From Myxococcales bacterium (GTDB taxonomy: Bacteria; Myxococcota_A; Polyangia; Polyangiales; Houyiibacteriaceae): a stretch of DNA of 38,497 bases. The notes beneath the pieces were generated by a model that was not told where the DNA came from, ran no database searches, and saw nothing but the letters and a program-made list of their open reading frames with translations. The stretch lies in contig JAOTVB010000023.1 of assembly GCA_029863605.1 (NCBI GenBank), positions 1 through 38,497 of the forward strand, written 5' to 3'. A program made the position numbers and the translations under genes. Positions 27,429-35,004 of the stretch are shown one piece after another; within the stretch, counting starts at the first letter, position 1; each line of letters begins with the position of its first letter.

Positions 27429-28604
27429 TCAATCTCTGTCGAGCGCCTCGAAGAGCCCCGCCGCGCCCATACCGCCGCCGATGCACATCGTCACGATCGC
27501 TCGCTTGCCTCCGCGTCGCTTCAACTCGTAGAGCGCGCTTGCCGTGAGCTTTGCGCCGGTGCAGCCGAGGGGGTGGCCGAGCGCGATTGCGCCGCCGTTG
27601 ACGTTGAGCTTGTCGTCGGGGATCCCGAGCTGTTGTTGGACATAGACGGCCTGGCTGCCGAAGGCTTCGTTGACCTCGAAAATGTCTATGTCGTCTATGG
27701 TGAGGTCGTTCTTGGCGAGAAGCTTTTGCACTGCCGGGATCGGGCCAATGCCCATGATTGACGGGTCGACCCCGACCGTAACGAACGACTTGAAGATCGC
27801 AAGTGGCTCGAGGCCGAGCTCTTCGGCCTTCTTCTTCTTCATGACGATCGCGGCTGCTGCACCGTCGGAAAGCGGCGACGAGTTGCCCGCGGTGACGCTG
27901 CCGTTGACCGCAAACGCCGGTCGCAGCTTGGCGAGCGCTTCGACCGTGGTTCCGGGCCGTGGCATTTCGTCGACCTTGAACTCGAACATCTTGCGCTCAC
28001 CATTTTCATCGAAGCGAACCCCGTGAACCGGTACGATCTCTTCTTCGAATGCGCCTTTCTCGATCGCCGCAAGGGCTCGTTCGTGGCTTCGTGCGGCGAA
28101 TTCATCTTGTTGTTGGCGGCTGATGTTGAAGCGGTTGGCGACGTTCTCCGCGGTGATGCCCATCGGCGTGTAGGTCTCGGGATACTTCTCCATGACCTCT
28201 GGCGATGCGCTCGGCTTGTTGCCGGTCATCGGGACCATGGTCATCGATTCCATGCCGCCGGCGATGACCACGTCGTTGTAACCCGCCTTGACCGAGCCGG
28301 CCCCCAACGCGATCGCCTGTAGACCGCTCGAACAAAAGCGATTGATGGTCAGCGCTGAGGTCTCCTCGGGAAGGCCCCCGAGCATGCCGACCATGCGCGC
28401 AACGTTCATGCCTTGCTCACCTTCCGGGAAGGCGCAGCCGAGCACCAGGTCCTCCACCATGTCGGGCTTCACTTGAGGGTTTCGGGCCATCAAGGCCCGG
28501 ACGACTTCGCCCGCGAGCTCATCGGGACGCCGATTGGCCAGGGATCCCTTCTTCGCGCGTCCAACCGCGCTTCGAACCGCATCTACGACGACGATCTTAC
28601 CCAT
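27429..28604 (-). CDS. fadA: Acetyl-CoA C-acyltransferase (3-ketoacyl-CoA thiolase)
   Basis: Thiolase that ends each beta-oxidation turn by releasing acetyl-CoA. The 391 residues carry the acyl-accepting Cys91 in [24 protein letters not shown]344 in [15 protein letters not shown] and the second catalytic Cys374 in [12 protein letters not shown]. Length is standard for the family. A strong ribosome site (AGGAG, 7 nt spacing) precedes ATG 28604. It lies 45 bp after the fadN-type gene and is almost certainly co-transcribed with it. Confidence 0.95.
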
Positions 28605-28649
28605 GTCTCTACTCCTGATTCCTTGTTGGCTCGTGCGTTCCGAACTGGC

Positions 28650-31016
28650 CTAGTTTCTCAAAGGTTTGTTGGTGGTGAGCATGTGTTGCATGCGCTCTTG
28701 GCTCTTGGGCTCGCCGCACAGGCTGATGAAGGCCTCGCGCTCGAGCTGAAGCATCTGTTCCTCGGTGACCTCGTGCGCGTTGCCCGACGGGCCGCCGCAC
28801 AGGACCATCGCGACCTTGCGGGCGATCAGCGCGTCGTGCTCAGTTGCGTAACCGCCGGCGACCAGCGTGTCGATCATCATGTCGAGTGTCGCCATGCCGC
28901 TCTCGCCCGGCAGCCGGTATGCCCGCCGGGGCGGTGGGTGGTAGCCAGCATCGGCCATGCCGATCACCCGGGCCTTGGCTTCGGTCAGCAGTCTTGCCTT
29001 GTCGAACGAGATTCCATCGGTCTTGCGGAAGTAGCCAAACTCTTTGGCCTCGCCGGCGCCGGTGGCGACGCGCGCCATTGCAATGTTCTGGAACGTGCGC
29101 GAAACGAAGGGAAGCGTGTCGACGTCGGTGCCGTCGGGGATCCCCTCGAGGGCGCGCCACAGCATGTTCATGTTGCCGGCGCCCCCCGGGAGAAGTCCGA
29201 CGCCGACCTCGACCAGACCGATGAAGGTTTCGGAAGCCGCCTGCACCGCGTCTGCGCCGAGACAGACCTCGCAACCGCCGCCGACGGTCATGCCAAACGG
29301 CGCCGCCACGACCGGAATGGTCGAATACTTCATGCGCTGCAGGCCGTTCTGCAGCCCGCTAATGGTGCCCCGCAGTTGGTCCCAGGCCTTTTGCTGCGCA
29401 GCCATGACGACCGCGAAGAGATTGGCGCCGACGCAGAAATGGTCGCCCTCGTTGTAGATCAGTAGCCCGCGGAAATCGCGCTCCGCAATCTCGACCGCGC
29501 GGCCGATTCCCTCGACGACCGTGTCGTCGATGCTGTTCGCCTTGGTGGTGAAGGTCAGGCCCAATACGCCGTCGCCGAGGTCCCAAGCCTCCGTGCCGCG
29601 GTTGCTGAACACCGCCGCGTCGCCCCGCCGCATCACCGTCAGGCTGGTATTGCGCGGGTCGATATCACGGGCTTCGTACTCGCCTTTCACCAGACTGAAC
29701 ACGCGGCCGTCGTTCGTGTAGAAGCTCTCAGCCCCCGACTCGGCCATCTTGTTTACCGAAGCCGGAAGCGACAGCCCATCGGCCTTCATCCGCTCGTACG
29801 CAGCCTTGAACCCGATGGCGTCCCAGGTCTCGAAGGGGCCTAGATCCCAGTTGTAGCCCCACTTCATCGCATTATCGACGGCTTCGACGTCGTCGGTGAT
29901 CTCGCCGATCTTCTTGGCCGAGTAGGCCAGGGTTTTCGAGAGAACCGCCCAGGCGAACTTCCCCGCAGGGCCGTCGTTTTCGACCAAGGCTTTCACACGG
30001 TCCGCCGGAGAGCCCTTGAGGCTCTTGCAGAACTTCTTGATCTCGGCGTCACCGGCCTTGGGCCGGTACTCGAGCTTCACGGGATCGAACGTCTGGATGC
30101 CTTCCTTGGTCTTCTTGTAGAAGCCACCGCGGGTCTTGTTGCCGAGGAGCTTCTGCTCGACCATTACGTCCACGAATTCCGGAAGCTTGAAGACATCACG
30201 CTCGGGGTCGTCGGTCAGCACCGCGTAGCAGTTGTCCGACACGTGCTTGAAGGTGTCGAGGCCCACCATGTCGGCGGTGCGATAGCTCGCACTTTTCGGG
30301 TGCCCCATGGGCGGCCCGCTGATGGCGTCGACGTCTTCCGGCGTCAAGCCAGCCTCGAGCATCTGGTTCATGATGAGCGACATCGAGTAGCAACCGATGC
30401 GGTTGCCCACGAAGTTCGGTGTGTCCTTGCCGATGACGATACCCTTGCCGAGCTGGTCCGTCCCGAAGAGGCTCATGCGATTCATCACGGCAGGGTCGGT
30501 GTCCTCGCCGGCGACCAGCTCGAGTAGCTTCATGTAACGGACCGGGTTGAAGAAGTGCATTACCAAAAAGTTCTTGCGGAATGAATCGCCACGCCCTTGG
30601 AGCATGTCCGCGATGCGGAGCCCCGAGGTGTTCGAAGCGAGGACCGTCCCTTCATCGAGGGTGTTCTCGAGCTTCTCGAAGAGGCTTCGCTTGATGTCGA
30701 GGTTTTCGATGATCGCCTCGATCACGAGGTCGCACCCCTTGAGGAGGTCGATGTCGTCCTCGAGGTTGCCGATCGTTACCCGCCTTGCGTAGACCGGATG
30801 AAAGAAGGCCGCGGGCCTCGCCTTGAGCGCGGCCTTGAGGCCGCCAGCCGCAAACTGATTCCTATTGGCCGGATTTTTCTTCTCTTTTTCGCTCAATCCC
30901 GGGGGAACGATGTCGAGCATCACTACGTCGATCCCAGCGTTGGCAAAGTGCGCCATGATGCCGCTACCCATGACACCCGCTCCGATCACACCTGCTCGCC
31001 GAACTGGTTTGGTCAT
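28650..31016 (-). CDS. fadN: 3-hydroxyacyl-CoA dehydrogenase/enoyl-CoA hydratase, FadN-type
   Basis: A 788-residue bifunctional beta-oxidation enzyme with the order seen in Bacillus FadN: the NAD-dependent 3-hydroxyacyl-CoA dehydrogenase comes first (RRAGVIGAGVMGSGIMAHF, about 6-24; MHFFNPVRYMKLLELV; NFVGNRIG) and the enoyl-CoA hydratase domain second (from about 480; NEGDHFCVGANL, GMTVGGGCEVCLGAD, GVGLLPGGAGN). This is the reverse of E. coli FadB. The size also matches FadN (about 789). The gene has a strong ribosome site (AGGAGAGAGG) before ATG 31016 and leads a fadN-fadA pair. An acyl-CoA dehydrogenase, which Bacillus has alongside, is not present. Confidence 0.92.
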   Translation of the reverse strand: MTKPVRRAGVIGAGVMGSGIMAHFANAGIDVVMLDIVPPGLSEKEKKNPANRNQFAAGGLKAALKARPAAFFHPVYARRVTIGNLEDDIDLLKGCDLVIEAIIENLDIKRSLFEKLENTLDEGTVLASNTSGLRIADMLQGRGDSFRKNFLVMHFFNPVRYMKLLELVAGEDTDPAVMNRMSLFGTDQLGKGIVIGKDTPNFVGNRIGCYSMSLIMNQMLEAGLTPEDVDAISGPPMGHPKSASYRTADMVGLDTFKHVSDNCYAVLTDDPERDVFKLPEFVDVMVEQKLLGNKTRGGFYKKTKEGIQTFDPVKLEYRPKAGDAEIKKFCKSLKGSPADRVKALVENDGPAGKFAWAVLSKTLAYSAKKIGEITDDVEAVDNAMKWGYNWDLGPFETWDAIGFKAAYERMKADGLSLPASVNKMAESGAESFYTNDGRVFSLVKGEYEARDIDPRNTSLTVMRRGDAAVFSNRGTEAWDLGDGVLGLTFTTKANSIDDTVVEGIGRAVEIAERDFRGLLIYNEGDHFCVGANLFAVVMAAQQKAWDQLRGTISGLQNGLQRMKYSTIPVVAAPFGMTVGGGCEVCLGADAVQAASETFIGLVEVGVGLLPGGAGNMNMLWRALEGIPDGTDVDTLPFVSRTFQNIAMARVATGAGEAKEFGYFRKTDGISFDKARLLTEAKARVIGMADAGYHPPPRRAYRLPGESGMATLDMMIDTLVAGGYATEHDALIARKVAMVLCGGPSGNAHEVTEEQMLQLEREAFISLCGEPKSQERMQHMLTTNKPLRN

Positions 31017-31092: not shown

Positions 31093-31896
31093 TTAACCCT
31101 TAGATGTGGCTCCCAGTGCCGCGACGAGATCGTCGTGAATCGCGCCATTGCTCGCGACCGCGCTGCCTCCGTAAATCGTCTCCTCGCCCGTCATCGAAGT
31201 GAGCCTTCCACCTGCTTCACGAATCAGGACGGCTGCGGCGCAGATGTCCCAAGGCTTGACCCCGGGGTCGACCATTGCGTCTGCCCTACCGAGCAGGACC
31301 TGCCTGTACCCGTCGAAGTCGGGATACCCCCGCGCCGAGTCGCACGCGCCGGCGAGCCCGACCAGCGTATCGCCGACGCCCGCTTCGGTGAACTGCTGAA
31401 GACTCCCGTGCATCACGGTGGCATCGCTCAGCGAGGTCACTTTCGACACATGTGCCTGCTCCCCATTGTGGGTCGTGCCTTGGCCGAGAGCCCCGACGAA
31501 GAGGTCACCGGCCGAGGGCATGTACGCGATCCCTACGACCGGGGATCCCTCGACCTCGATCCCGAGGAGCACCGACCACGTCGGCAGACCTCGGATGAAT
31601 GCGCGGGTTCCGTCGATGGGATCAACGATGAAACGGAGCTCGGCATTGTCGCCATGTCGGCCGGTCTCCTCGCCGTAGAACTCCGCATGTGGATAGCGCT
31701 CCATGACGTAGTCGCGGATCACCTGCTCCACCTCGCGATCGGCGGCGGTCACCGGGCTCCGATCTGGCTTCCTTTCAGGAATGACCCCCCGATCGAAATG
31801 TTTCAGGGCGATCTCCCCAGCCCGGACGATCACATCGGTGAGGGCGTGTAACGCGCCCGAGCCACCGATGCGATCTGCGTCAAACCCGTTGCCCAT
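31093..31896 (-). CDS. Inositol monophosphatase-family phosphatase, HisN-like
   Basis: Mg-dependent phosphatase of 267 residues. The metal ligands are E76/E77 in YGEETGR, D92 and D95 in VDPIDGTRAFIRG, and the Asp of KPWDICAAAVLIREAGG. The string DPIDGTRAFIRGLPTWSVLLG is nearest to the histidinol-phosphatase (HisN) branch rather than SuhB, so its role may be the last but one step of histidine synthesis; inositol phosphate or PAP cannot be excluded. ATG 31896 was chosen; TTG 32010 would add 38 non-conserved residues and overlap the neighbouring gene. It is divergent from the acyltransferase gene. Confidence 0.85.
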   Translation of the reverse strand: MGNGFDADRIGGSGALHALTDVIVRAGEIALKHFDRGVIPERKPDRSPVTAADREVEQVIRDYVMERYPHAEFYGEETGRHGDNAELRFIVDPIDGTRAFIRGLPTWSVLLGIEVEGSPVVGIAYMPSAGDLFVGALGQGTTHNGEQAHVSKVTSLSDATVMHGSLQQFTEAGVGDTLVGLAGACDSARGYPDFDGYRQVLLGRADAMVDPGVKPWDICAAAVLIREAGGRLTSMTGEETIYGGSAVASNGAIHDDLVAALGATSKG

Positions 31897-32001: not shown

Positions 32002-32931
32002 ATGTATCAAAGGGGGTCAATCGTGCCGTTCGCCGGCTGGCGGCGGCCACGATTGTTGGGGGATTCTCCCTGGCGGGCGGCTCTTCGCTCGGTGGGGGAT
32101 CGCGTCGTACGGATCGCCGAAGAGGTGGTCGGCCAGGACATCGACGCCCGCATCGCCGGCATTAGGACCCACCCCAACGAGGTCGGCCACGATCCCTTTG
32201 GCTTCGACCCGGAGACCAGCCGCTACGCCCTCGCCATGGCGGGCCTCCTGCACCGCCGCTACTTTCGCACCCAGGTATTCGGCATCGACCGCATCCCCGA
32301 GGGCAGGGTGCTGATCGTCGCCAATCATTCGGGCCAACTCCCAATCGACGCCGTGCTGATCGCCAGCGCGCTCATGCTGGATGCGAACCCGCCGCGGTTC
32401 CCACGGAGCATGGTCGAAACCTGGACCGCCGAGCTGCCCTTCATTTCGAAGCTCTACCCACGGCTCGGCCAGGTCGTCGGCTCGCCGGAAAACGCTCGCC
32501 GCCTGTTGAGGCAAGACGAGTCGCTGATCGTCTTCCCCGAGGGGGCCAAGGGGATCAGCAAGACCTTTGATCAGCGCTATCAGCTCACCGACTTTGGCTT
32601 GGGCTTCGTGCGGCTCGCGCTCGAGACCAACACCCCGATCGTCCCGGTCGCAGTCATCGGTGGCGAGGAGCAGTATCCCTCGATCGCGGACTTCAAGCCG
32701 CTCGCCAAGCTCCTCCGGATGCCGGCGTTTCCGATCATGCCGCAGATGTTCTTCGGAATGGTTGCGCCCCTGCCGACGAAATACCGTCTCTACTTCGGCG
32801 AGCCGTTCCGGTTCGCGGGCGACCCCGACGATGAAGACTCGGCCGTCGAAGAAAAAGTTTGGCTCGTCAAGAGCACGATTCAAAGCATGGTGAACCGCGG
32901 CTTACGCGAACGAAAAGGAGTGTTCATCTGA
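32002..32931 (+). CDS. Lysophospholipid/glycerol acyltransferase-like protein (MGAT-like LPLAT)
   Basis: A 309-residue PlsC-superfamily acyltransferase. The catalytic block reads ANHSGQLPIDA: H109 and D116 are seven apart, not the usual H-x4-D, a form seen in the MGAT-like branch. The second block is FPEGAKGISKTF, then PIVPVAVIGGEEQYP. There is no clear membrane helix. ATG 32002 is the longer start; GTG 32023, with AAAGGGGG 6 nt upstream, is a good alternative. It is followed after 20 bp by an SDR/epimerase-like gene. A similar acyltransferase/epimerase pair exists in mycobacteria (Rv0502 and Rv0501), as I recall, so the two may act on one lipid. Confidence 0.85.
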   Translation: MYQRGSIVPFAGWRRPRLLGDSPWRAALRSVGDRVVRIAEEVVGQDIDARIAGIRTHPNEVGHDPFGFDPETSRYALAMAGLLHRRYFRTQVFGIDRIPEGRVLIVANHSGQLPIDAVLIASALMLDANPPRFPRSMVETWTAELPFISKLYPRLGQVVGSPENARRLLRQDESLIVFPEGAKGISKTFDQRYQLTDFGLGFVRLALETNTPIVPVAVIGGEEQYPSIADFKPLAKLLRMPAFPIMPQMFFGMVAPLPTKYRLYFGEPFRFAGDPDDEDSAVEEKVWLVKSTIQSMVNRGLRERKGVFI

Positions 32932-32951
32932 AGGAGGACCCACCCGTTTTC

Positions 32952-34055
32952 ATGCCTGACCCACAACCCACCCGTCCCACCAAACCAAGCGCCCGTCCCG
33001 GAGGAGAGCCGGTCGAAGGTCGCCCTTCCGCCCGTGCGTCCGTGGCTCTGGGCGTCTTTGGTGATTCGAGCCCGCCGATCGCGAAGCCGTCGCACACGAG
33101 TGGTGTTCGCCCCAGGCCCGCCACCGAGGGCGCGGTGCTCGTAACGGGGATATGTGGGCGCCTCGGCAAGCTCCTCGCCCGCGAGCTCCACCGTTCGGAC
33201 ACGGTGGTGGGGGTCGATCGGCGGCCCTTCGTTGGGCGCCCCAAAGACATCACCCACCACGAAGTCGACATGCGCCGAAAGAAGATGAAAGACATCTTTC
33301 GCGGCCGGAACATTCGAGCGGTCGTTCACGTGGGAGTCCTTCACGACCCTCGCCGGAGCGACCGCGAACGGCACTCCTGGAACATCGTCGCGTTTCAGAA
33401 GCTGCTCGAGTACATGGCGCAGTACGAGGTTCCAAAGCTCGTGGTTTTGTCGGGGGCCAACGTCTACGGCCCCCAGTCCAACAACCCCCAGTTCCTGACC
33501 GAGGATGCGCCCCTGCTCGGCGCTCAGCACTTCGGGGGGATGCGTGATTTGGTCGAGCTCGACATGATCGCCCAGAGCTTCTTCTGGAAGCATCCAAGCA
33601 CCGATACGGTCATTCTTCGTCCCTGCCACATCGTCGGGCGCGTTCGAAACGCGGCGAGCAACTACCTCAGGCTCGACCGCCCCGTGATGATCATGGGCTT
33701 CGACCCGATGATGCAGGTCGTGCACGAAAAGGACGTCGTGCGGGCGATCCAGCTTGCCCTGCGCCCGGGGGTCCGCGGCATTTTCAACATCCGCGGCCCT
33801 GGGGAAATGCCGCTTTCCCATTTAGTGCGCCAGGCAGGGGGGCGTCCGAGAGTGCTTCCGTCACCGCTTGCGCGTTTGGCGCTCGACCAGCTGTGGCGGC
33901 TGCGTCTGAGCAGCTTCCCGTCCCAGGAGCTCGACCATTTGCGCTATGTCTGCATGGTCGACGACGCCCGGGCGCGCGAAGAGCTCGGGTATGAGCCGAC
34001 TCATTCGATCGACCGAGCCCTTCGCGACCTCCGGCGCGTTCGGTATTTGGTCTAG
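32952..34055 (+). CDS. NAD-dependent epimerase/SDR-like protein lacking the YxxxK pair
   Basis: A 367-residue protein with a disordered, Pro-rich first 58 residues, then an extended-SDR Rossmann domain: VLVTGICGRLGK (62-73), VVGVDRRP, VVLSGANVYG (164-173). Where other members have Tyr-x3-Lys, this protein reads F194-x3-R198 (QHFGGMRDLVELD), so ordinary SDR catalysis is unlikely. The substrate-binding half contains ILRPCHIVG and FNIRGPGEMPLSHLV. The strong AAGGAGGA at 32931-32938 lies 13 nt before ATG 32952, somewhat far, so the true start is uncertain. It is paired with the acyltransferase gene. Confidence 0.8.
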   Translation: MPDPQPTRPTKPSARPGGEPVEGRPSARASVALGVFGDSSPPIAKPSHTSGVRPRPATEGAVLVTGICGRLGKLLARELHRSDTVVGVDRRPFVGRPKDITHHEVDMRRKKMKDIFRGRNIRAVVHVGVLHDPRRSDRERHSWNIVAFQKLLEYMAQYEVPKLVVLSGANVYGPQSNNPQFLTEDAPLLGAQHFGGMRDLVELDMIAQSFFWKHPSTDTVILRPCHIVGRVRNAASNYLRLDRPVMIMGFDPMMQVVHEKDVVRAIQLALRPGVRGIFNIRGPGEMPLSHLVRQAGGRPRVLPSPLARLALDQLWRLRLSSFPSQELDHLRYVCMVDDARAREELGYEPTHSIDRALRDLRRVRYLV

Positions 34056-34062
34056 CGCGCGG

Positions 34063-35004
34063 TCAACGGCACTTACCGTCTAGGCAGTCTTGGCCTTCGG
34101 GGCACTCGCTTTGGATGCGGCAGTCGCTCCGCATCTCGCTTGGCGCGTAGCAGAGGTTGTCGAGACCACAGAGTGGTACCTGGCCATCGAACGACTCGCA
34201 GATCGCATCGGGATCGGGTGCGGTCGCATCACATTCGGTCCGGCACACGCCCTCGACGCAGACCGTGCCGTCGCAATCGACGTCCGTTCGGCAGAACGGG
34301 TTCGGGGCGTTCGGGTCGGGGGTGGTACGCGGACGGCAGAAGCCCTCGGCATCGCATGTCTCGGTGGCCTCGTCGCAGCCGGAGTCACAGCGCCGTAGGC
34401 ACGCCCCCTCGACGCAGTTCGTGGTGAGGTCAGGGCAATCGCTGCTGTCGATGCATTGTCCGGCCACTGGGACACAAAGACTATCCTGGCAGGCCGTGCC
34501 GCTCGGGCATCGCGTGCTCCCGCCGCAAAGCAATCGGCAACGGTTGTTCGCGCAGGTGAAGCCGGCGGCGCATTGGAAGTCGAACTGGCAGGTTTCGATC
34601 ACCGGCACGCAGAGGTTCTCGACACAGAGCTCCTCGGAGTCGCAGTCGGTGTCGAGGAGACAGTTGCTCTCCACCTCCGGGCGACAGCTGTCTCTGAAAT
34701 CACACTCGAATCCGACGGCGCAGTCCGGATCCTCTCGGCACTCGGAAAGTGCGGGGATCAAACACGCGCCCTCCGACCGTTCGCAATAGCTTCCAACCGG
34801 GCAATCGCCGTCGGTGAGACAGATGCCAAAATCCACGGCGACACACCCATTGGTCGATGGGTCGCAGAACGCTTCCGAAGGACAGTCGAGATCGTCGAAA
34901 CAGGAGATCGGCACATCGCGCTGGACGGGGTCCGGTCCGTAAATGGGACAGCCGACGAGGAGGAGCATTGCGGGTAGCAATGAGAGAATACGTGCTTTGG
35001 CCAT
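34063..35004 (-). CDS. Lipoprotein with eleven 4-Cys (EB/Dickkopf-like) repeats
   Basis: A 313-residue lipoprotein with signal peptide ending at LLVGC (C19). From residue 34 on it is a chain of eleven units, each with four cysteines in the spacing C-x5-C-x5-C-x4-6-C (for example CLTDGDCPVGSYC, CFDDLDCPSEAFC), 45 cysteines with the lipidated one. Unit 10 has longer loops. The disulfide-rich rod should sit outside the cell. Such repeat lipoproteins are typical of myxobacteria and their function is unknown; adhesion or matrix contact is a guess. It is convergent with the SDR gene 7 bp away. Confidence 0.85.
   Translation of the reverse strand: MAKARILSLLPAMLLLVGCPIYGPDPVQRDVPISCFDDLDCPSEAFCDPSTNGCVAVDFGICLTDGDCPVGSYCERSEGACLIPALSECREDPDCAVGFECDFRDSCRPEVESNCLLDTDCDSEELCVENLCVPVIETCQFDFQCAAGFTCANNRCRLLCGGSTRCPSGTACQDSLCVPVAGQCIDSSDCPDLTTNCVEGACLRRCDSGCDEATETCDAEGFCRPRTTPDPNAPNPFCRTDVDCDGTVCVEGVCRTECDATAPDPDAICESFDGQVPLCGLDNLCYAPSEMRSDCRIQSECPEGQDCLDGKCR

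Follow-up and report, generated by a model that had tools for sequence, protein, structure and literature searches.

A PlsC-fold acyltransferase and an SDR-fold protein without Tyr-x3-Lys: a conserved gene pair with a possible joint role in lipid modification

The gene pair

The subject of this study is a pair of adjacent genes in a 38,497-nucleotide stretch of DNA ("the window") from a Myxococcales bacterium (GenBank assembly GCA_029863605.1, contig JAOTVB010000023.1). Both genes lie on the forward strand. The upstream gene (32002..32931) encodes an acyltransferase (AT) of 309 aa having the PlsC fold (PF01553), with an H-x6-D motif at H109/D116 and an FPEG motif at residues 178-181. The downstream gene, which runs from an ATG at 32952 to a stop codon ending at 34055, encodes a 367-aa protein with the GalE fold (PF01370). 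This protein is an extended short-chain dehydrogenase/reductase (SDR) in which F194-x3-R198 replaces the Tyr-x3-Lys motif. The five codons of the degenerate active-site motif F194-G-G-M-R198, located by alignment, are TTC GGG GGG ATG CGT (33531..33545, + strand). The two genes are separated by a gap of 20 nt (32932..32951, + strand), where direct reading of the sequence shows AGGAGGA right behind the AT stop codon and 5' of the SDR ATG.

The pair is not a chance arrangement, because orthologues of the two genes are adjacent in all four other searched genomes of the genus (89-97% identity for the AT and 80-93% for the SDR), and two further AT-SDR pairs are present in the bacterium's own genome. 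There, the window SDR matches five further relatives and the window AT three. The additional pairs are situated on contigs C7 and C20; both have an SDR with F-x3-A and an AT with H-x6-D. In the C7 pair the AT is upstream and the start of the SDR overlaps the AT stop (TAATG). Three other SDR relatives in this genome (L004-L006) have no AT of this family nearby and keep Y-x3-K.

The SDR protein

The window SDR matches the Epimerase family PF01370 with an E value of 9.3e-18 (64.9 bits against a threshold of 20.9), and both this score and the predicted fold are those of an extended SDR. The AlphaFold2 model of residues 54-367 has a pLDDT of 92.5. Its best match among solved structures is GalE 4zrm (Z 31.9, root-mean-square deviation (rmsd) 2.6 over 282 residues), and human GalE 1hzj follows with a Z of 31.5. 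By sequence, the best match in the PDB is 4id9 (E 3.3e-9). With the GalE-like extended SDRs of PF01370, among which we count the CDD class cd05240 (UDP_G4E_3_SDR_e), the paired SDRs share the extended-SDR fold, the TGxxGxxG region, the beta-2 Asp, the VYG and the Asn. They differ from them in lacking Tyr-x3-Lys, in lacking an Arg at the position of GalE Arg231, and in having a family-typical Asp right behind the Lys position. In the window SDR this Asp is D199, which follows R198 and is invariant in ten aligned sequences.

The active site was surveyed in 170 SDRs, 88 from the home phylum (presumably Myxococcota) and 82 from actinobacteria, which were aligned with the relatives from the own genome. 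The sample comprised proteins of at least 200 bits and 250 aa, with duplicates and one further sequence (L186) removed. Tyr and Lys never occur together. The Lys is absent from its position in all 88 home-phylum SDRs, and the Tyr is absent from its position in all 82 actinobacterial ones. By our count, the helix that follows the motif exceeds that of canonical SDRs by two residues, so that Phe194 and Arg198 may be offset by two, and a second alignment put the canonical Lys two columns away. In view of this possible shift in register, Y-x3-K was also counted at any place up to 16 residues from the Lys column, and was found in none of the 88 home-phylum and none of the 82 actinobacterial proteins (0/170).

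The residues that occupy the two positions differ between the phyla. The home-phylum SDRs have F-x3-R (41), Y-x3-R (18), F-x3-A (17) or other combinations (12). The actinobacterial SDRs have S-x3-K (30), G-x3-K (25), H-x3-K (19) or others (8), with Ser, Gly or His at the Tyr position in 79 of the 82 and Lys at its own position in 76. It is therefore the loss of Tyr-x3-Lys that is conserved, and not Phe194 and Arg198. The preliminary description of this DNA had pointed out the Phe-x3-Arg of the window SDR, which was confirmed on reading and aligning F194-G-G-M-R198, and had named orthologues with Tyr and Lys as one finding that would overturn its proposal; no such protein is among the 170. The conservation of F194 and R198 themselves, which it proposed to test, did not hold. 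Several other features are kept: the first Rossmann Gly and the beta-2 Asp are each kept in 169 of the 170 SDRs, the Asn of the tetrad in 166, and the Asp right behind the Lys position in 165. Arg or Gly stands in place of the Ser in 26 of the 88 home-phylum SDRs.

For comparison, ten distant SDR relatives from six actinobacterial genomes, having no AT match within about 2.5 kb, were used as unlinked controls. Eight of these keep Y-x3-K.

Arg231 of E. coli GalE, which we take to be an Arg of the sugar-nucleotide site four residues before a conserved His, has no Arg counterpart in any of the 170 SDRs or in any of the ten controls, so that none of them matches a UDP-glucose 4-epimerase at this position. 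The missing Arg was considered as a sign of a dead SDR and dropped, since the ten unlinked relatives also lack it and eight of them keep Y-x3-K. Its absence argues against GalE activity and is silent on whether the SDR is catalytically dead.

The acyltransferase

The only Pfam family found in the window AT is PF01553 (E 4.8e-15, 56 bits against a gathering score of 23), which places it in the PlsC/LPLAT superfamily. The wide H-x6-D spacing noticed in the preliminary description is borne out by the motif N108-H109-S-G-Q-L-P-I-D116. PlsC proper (AGPAT) has H-x4-D instead, and the AGPAT model TIGR00530 (AGP_acyltrn) gives 30.2 bits, well below its curated cut-off of 102.95; no model in the NCBIfam scan of the window pair came near its curated cut-off. 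H109 and D116 are invariant in 55 aligned sequences, and N108, H109, D116, P179, E180 and G181 in 52. Of 162 paired ATs, 161 have N-H-x6-D; in the sole exception (L163) the motif was not resolved.

The AlphaFold2 model of the AT has a pLDDT of 91.3. The Thermotoga maritima PlsC (5kym; Z 18.7, rmsd 3.2, 200 residues) is the best match among solved structures, followed by GPAT1, a plant GPAT and, lower down, PatA. The window AT thus resembles PlsC in predicted fold and in the order of its NH...D and PEG motifs; it differs in the spacing of the first motif, and in that ATs of the window type have a neighbouring SDR gene in most of the genomes that could be checked among the matches listed. PatA of M. 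smegmatis (5F2Z), which acylates phosphatidylinositol mannoside, is likewise a membrane-associated acyltransferase of this fold class, but is only 14% identical (Z 11.3, rmsd 5.1, 171 residues), and we know of no SDR partner of PatA. By sequence, no match to the AT was found in the PDB at E <= 0.01. There is no DGAT2-type structure among the listed Foldseek/VIA matches, which does not in itself exclude kinship. Among the closer matches of the model is also chain T of 7zkq, an assembly intermediate of complex I (Z 14.4, rmsd 3.5, 204 residues).

There are 13 matches to PF01553 in the own genome; a simple pattern finds H-x4-D in four of ten other proteins and resolves no motif in the remaining six. 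One protein with H-x4-D (G000:C28:4067-5899, - strand; L010/L303) stands beside a same-strand match to PF07993, a fatty-acyl-reductase type. This is a second kind of AT-reductase neighbourhood in the genome and is reminiscent of ether-lipid genes. Two distant plasmid relatives of the AT without an SDR (L090 and L092; Mycolicibacterium, Acaryochloris) show H-x7-D, indicating that the His-Asp spacing varies further in this family. The Mycolicibacterium gene adjoins a wax ester/triacylglycerol synthase gene.

Linkage of the two genes

Of 187 home-phylum genomes, 148 have a match to the SDR (E <= 1e-20) and 164 have one to the AT. Both are present in 146 genomes, the AT alone in 18, the SDR alone in 2 and neither in 21, which gives an odds ratio of 85, uncorrected for kinship. 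In a sample of 198 genomes of Actinomycetota, the AT is found in 60 and the SDR in 73, with both in 58, the AT alone in 2, the SDR alone in 15 and neither in 123; the odds ratio, again uncorrected for kinship, is 238.

The two genes are not only found in the same genomes but are usually adjacent. Pairing was counted among the matches listed, together with two AT matches from the own genome and, for the actinobacterial SDRs, the first 81 of the matches listed. The numbers of unpaired genes are upper bounds, as several SDRs first counted as unpaired proved to be paired when their regions were read. In the home phylum a partner lies within 2 kb of 107 of 152 ATs and 107 of 150 SDRs. A partner is found for the genome's best AT in 91 of 113 cases and for its best SDR in 92 of 110. 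The AT precedes the SDR in 87 pairs, the SDR precedes the AT in 18, and two pairs are divergent. In Actinomycetota, 55 of 60 genomes have their best AT in a pair, and the usual order is reversed, with the SDR first in 53 pairs and the AT first in 4. Co-occurrence and adjacency in both phyla bear out the earlier claim that the pair is conserved across distant phyla.

A scan of contigs gave a similar result. The best 80 AT loci, which come closest to a Nonomuraea query and are not a random sample, all have an SDR upstream within 530 bp on the same strand (80/80). Of the 77 loci that have sufficient upstream sequence, 71 have a small open reading frame (ORF) of the AURKAIP1/COX24 type in front of the SDR. 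The contig titles are actinobacterial with one exception, a Spirochaetaceae metagenome-assembled genome (L164), which has a pair of the actinobacterial type with an AT 66% identical to that of Nonomuraea and is perhaps mislabelled or contaminated.

In a collection of 72,556 plasmid records, the AT matches 6 and the SDR 18. Adjacent AT and SDR genes are present in three of these records, from Nocardia farcinica, Nonomuraea gerenzanensis and Tsukamurella tyrosinosolvens. The other three AT matches are in records without an SDR match; the two of them that were read are the Mycolicibacterium and Acaryochloris proteins with H-x7-D. An SDR on a Rubrobacter plasmid, which has no AT, keeps Y-x3-K. In Tsukamurella the gene order is proC, a helix-turn-helix gene, AURKAIP1, SDR, AT, HAD hydrolase, glutaredoxin, glutamyl-tRNA reductase and hemC, where the AURKAIP1-like ORF of 33 aa matches PF08213. 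This order fits what we take to be the Rv0500-Rv0512 region of M. tuberculosis. By gene context, the actinobacterial pair would then correspond to Rv0501 ("galE2") and Rv0502, for which the Tsukamurella and Nocardia loci stand in here. The preliminary description had named Rv0502/Rv0501 as a similar pair, and the Tsukamurella context agrees with this. The likeness lies in the same two families being adjacent. Apart from the mostly reversed order (SDR first in 53 of 57), the actinobacterial SDR differs from that of the window in mostly keeping the Lys, in having Ser, Gly or His for the Tyr, and in having Arg for the second Rossmann Gly. The actinobacterial proteins are 33-40% (AT) and 25-31% (SDR) identical to those of the window.

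A conserved third gene in AT-SDR gaps longer than 600 bp was looked for and rejected, because the two loci that were read differ. The gap in L212 holds a lipoprotein-like ORF. In L177 a canonical-looking sugar-nucleotide SDR with YAATK (L177:4024-4815, +) lies between the AT and the SDR on the opposite strand. A conserved neighbour in the home phylum was likewise rejected, as the recurrent families (ETF-domain, thioesterase, metallo-beta-lactamase with HAGH_C, DUF1232, alpha/beta hydrolase and Rieske) occur in at most 13 of the scanned loci. The listed loci with these neighbours all have the SDR first, so that the neighbours look clade-bound.

Co-inheritance

Trees of the two proteins were compared for 157 pairs in which the genes are no more than 2 kb apart and the AT stretch is 230 aa or longer. 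The patristic distances correlate with r = 0.945 overall, 0.82 within the actinobacteria and 0.73 within the home phylum. For each of 75 home-phylum loci, the locus of the nearest AT relative has the same gene order, and for 51 of them it also has the same SDR motif. The AT clusters largely match the motif classes of the SDR: 13 of the 16 members of one AT cluster have F-x3-A, and in another, of 15 members, all loci have Y-x3-R with the SDR first. F-x3-R dominates only in the window's own clades, where it is found in 34 of the 39 loci of AT clusters 6 and 7.

The window pair belongs to AT cluster 6 and SDR cluster 4. The pairs on contigs C7 and C20 both belong to AT cluster 2 and SDR cluster 5. 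If the pair had been duplicated as a unit, one would expect the additional pairs to cluster together in both trees, as they do.

Previous reports on the pair

Previous work was searched for in open-licence papers in PMC. No biochemical function of the AT-SDR pair was found in them, as the preliminary description, which had called the role undescribed, would lead one to expect. The pair consists of known families, is conserved into the lineage of the tuberculosis bacterium, and is without a described function in the literature searched.

Rv0502 is one of seven PlsC homologues, is conserved in M. smegmatis and M. leprae, and is not predicted to be essential (PMC10593935); that report itself studies PlsM and PlsB2. 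The M. leprae orthologue of Rv0501 is ML2428 (PMC4809885). Rv0502 is annotated as a conserved protein, and MSMEG_0946, an M. smegmatis gene of the region, as an NAD-dependent epimerase/dehydratase (PMC7005898). A transposon mutant in the M. avium homologue of Rv0502 was among the ten clones picked in a visual screen of about 4,000 mutants that looked for delayed apoptosis of secondary macrophages; it is outside the four clones that were retested (PMC6177253). Rv0502 is otherwise merely listed in expression clusters (PMC1884158), and Rv0501 in association tables (PMC8674244; PMC8846590).

Function of the pair

The AT is most likely an active PlsC-fold acyltransferase with a modified H-x6-D site. 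Probably associated with the membrane, it would move an acyl chain from acyl-coenzyme A or acyl-(acyl carrier protein) to a lysophospholipid or glycolipid, using a catalytic site formed by His109/Asp116 and the PEG motif.

For the SDR, the most likely reading is a pseudoenzyme. Its redox activity has likely been lost, because the active-site Tyr and Lys are never found together in the members examined, and the same reading is suggested by the wide variation of the catalytic residues between clades while the fold and part of the cofactor site are kept. The GalE-fold protein would then most likely carry out no SDR redox chemistry and would probably serve as a regulatory or scaffolding partner subunit that binds the AT and tunes or positions it, perhaps through a retained NAD(P)-type pocket.

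The two genes remain neighbours in two phyla, in either order and after duplication, and in this sense the pair behaves as a unit. From the protein families and the linkage we infer a joint role with lipids, and it is quite possible, although put forward tentatively, that the acyltransferase and its SDR-fold pseudoenzyme partner form one functional lipid-modifying unit. In a more far-reaching and somewhat speculative version of this, the SDR-fold pseudoenzyme would be a regulatory subunit that serves the PlsC-like AT exclusively and may sense NAD(P), and the complex of the two would be of ancient origin, shared by two phyla, duplicated as a unit and kept in the reduced genome of M. leprae. If so, "GalE2" would be a misnomer for the partner of a lipid enzyme. 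The AT is usually annotated by itself as PlsC-like, and the SDR by itself as a sugar epimerase. The comparison made here indicates that the latter label is probably wrong and that the AT and SDR should be studied as one unit.

Several observations weigh against an inactive SDR acting in a unit with the AT. Two of the ten unlinked controls (L233 and L235, which resemble each other) also lack Y-x3-K, so that its loss is typical of the AT-linked SDRs and not unique to them. In 71 of the 82 actinobacterial SDRs an Arg replaces the second Gly of GxxGxxG, which makes the idea of a retained cofactor weaker there. A group of home-phylum ATs, for example G026:C7:7049-7861 and G079:C73:42220-43023, has no listed SDR within 2 kb, and some ATs may therefore work alone; in genomes G134 and G154 the best AT and the best SDR are on different contigs. 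No fusion of the two proteins was found, none of 177 SDR matches sharing an ORF with an AT. The agreement of the two trees is expected in part from species history. Finally, 79 of the 82 actinobacterial SDRs hold Lys or Arg at one register with a Tyr (48) or Phe (31) two residues earlier, so that they might have an unusual active site, and all 82 carry an Arg one residue before the GalE Arg231 position.

An unusual site of this kind would suit an SDR that is still an enzyme. Such an enzyme, with a rearranged site, would make or modify the acceptor, which might be a polyol or lipid head group in reduced or epimerised form and would then be acylated by the AT, the two acting sequentially and without forming a complex. 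The predicted extended-SDR fold is intact, the beta-2 Asp and TGxxGxxG are largely kept in the home phylum, and the tetrad Asn and the Asp next to the Lys position are nearly always present. A parallel is offered by the elb operon of M. xanthus, which like MXAN_1676-1674 concerns ether lipids and in which, by description, an epimerase-family SDR gene, elbE, stands beside elbD, whose product has an acyltransferase domain; with elbE inactivated, ether lipids are lower, so that the gene is needed for their normal level, and insertions in elbA, another epimerase-family SDR gene, are without effect (PMC9131029). The elb acyltransferase sits within a multidomain protein, and an ElbD-type protein is not among the 12 recurrent neighbour families listed for the pair loci. 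An active SDR has to be reconciled with Tyr and Lys never occurring together in the 170 proteins, with the Arg or Gly at the Ser position in 26 of the 88 home-phylum members, and with a wide variation of site residues between clades that would be unusual for an enzyme. It is possible, if rather doubtful.

It is improbable that the pair is an ordinary neighbourhood, in which a PlsC paralogue and an unrelated SDR share an operon and are inherited together without acting together. The contribution of species history to the tree agreement and the existence of AT copies without an SDR would fit such an arrangement. The adjacency persists, however, in both phyla, where the order is inverted and where the whole pair has been duplicated, and the high co-occurrence odds ratios, uncorrected for kinship as they are, also argue against it, as does the reported presence of both members in the reduced M. 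leprae genome (PMC10593935, PMC4809885).

That the SDR is a UDP-glucose 4-epimerase, as the galE2 name of Rv0501 has it, supplying UDP-galactose for a glycolipid that is acylated by the AT, is very unlikely: GalE is the closest solved fold and the metabolic model iNJ661 has Rv0501 as a UDPG4E isozyme beside Rv3634c (PMC1925256), but neither Tyr-x3-Lys nor the GalE Arg is present in any of the 170 proteins, and the window SDR gives 30.7 bits with the galE model TIGR01179, far below the cut-off of 262.3. The false-negative table of iNJ661 gives Rv0536 and Rv0501 as the isozymes of Rv3634c, which is required for growth despite these alternatives (PMC1925256); this fits an Rv0501 that does not replace Rv3634c. 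A pseudoenzyme partner of the AT would thus bear on the error of the model, which spares Rv3634c on account of Rv0536 and Rv0501 where growth data say that it is required.

Neighbouring genes in the window

Genes for a FadB-like protein (788 aa) and a thiolase, of fatty-acid beta-oxidation, lie near the pair at 27429-31016 on the - strand. A gene of the inositol-monophosphatase family (31093-31872) is divergent to the pair; its best NCBIfam match is the HisN-type model TIGR02067, below its cut-off. On the other side, the pair is adjoined by a gene on the - strand (34063-35004) encoding a Cys-rich, secreted-looking protein with a weak match to DUF7107.

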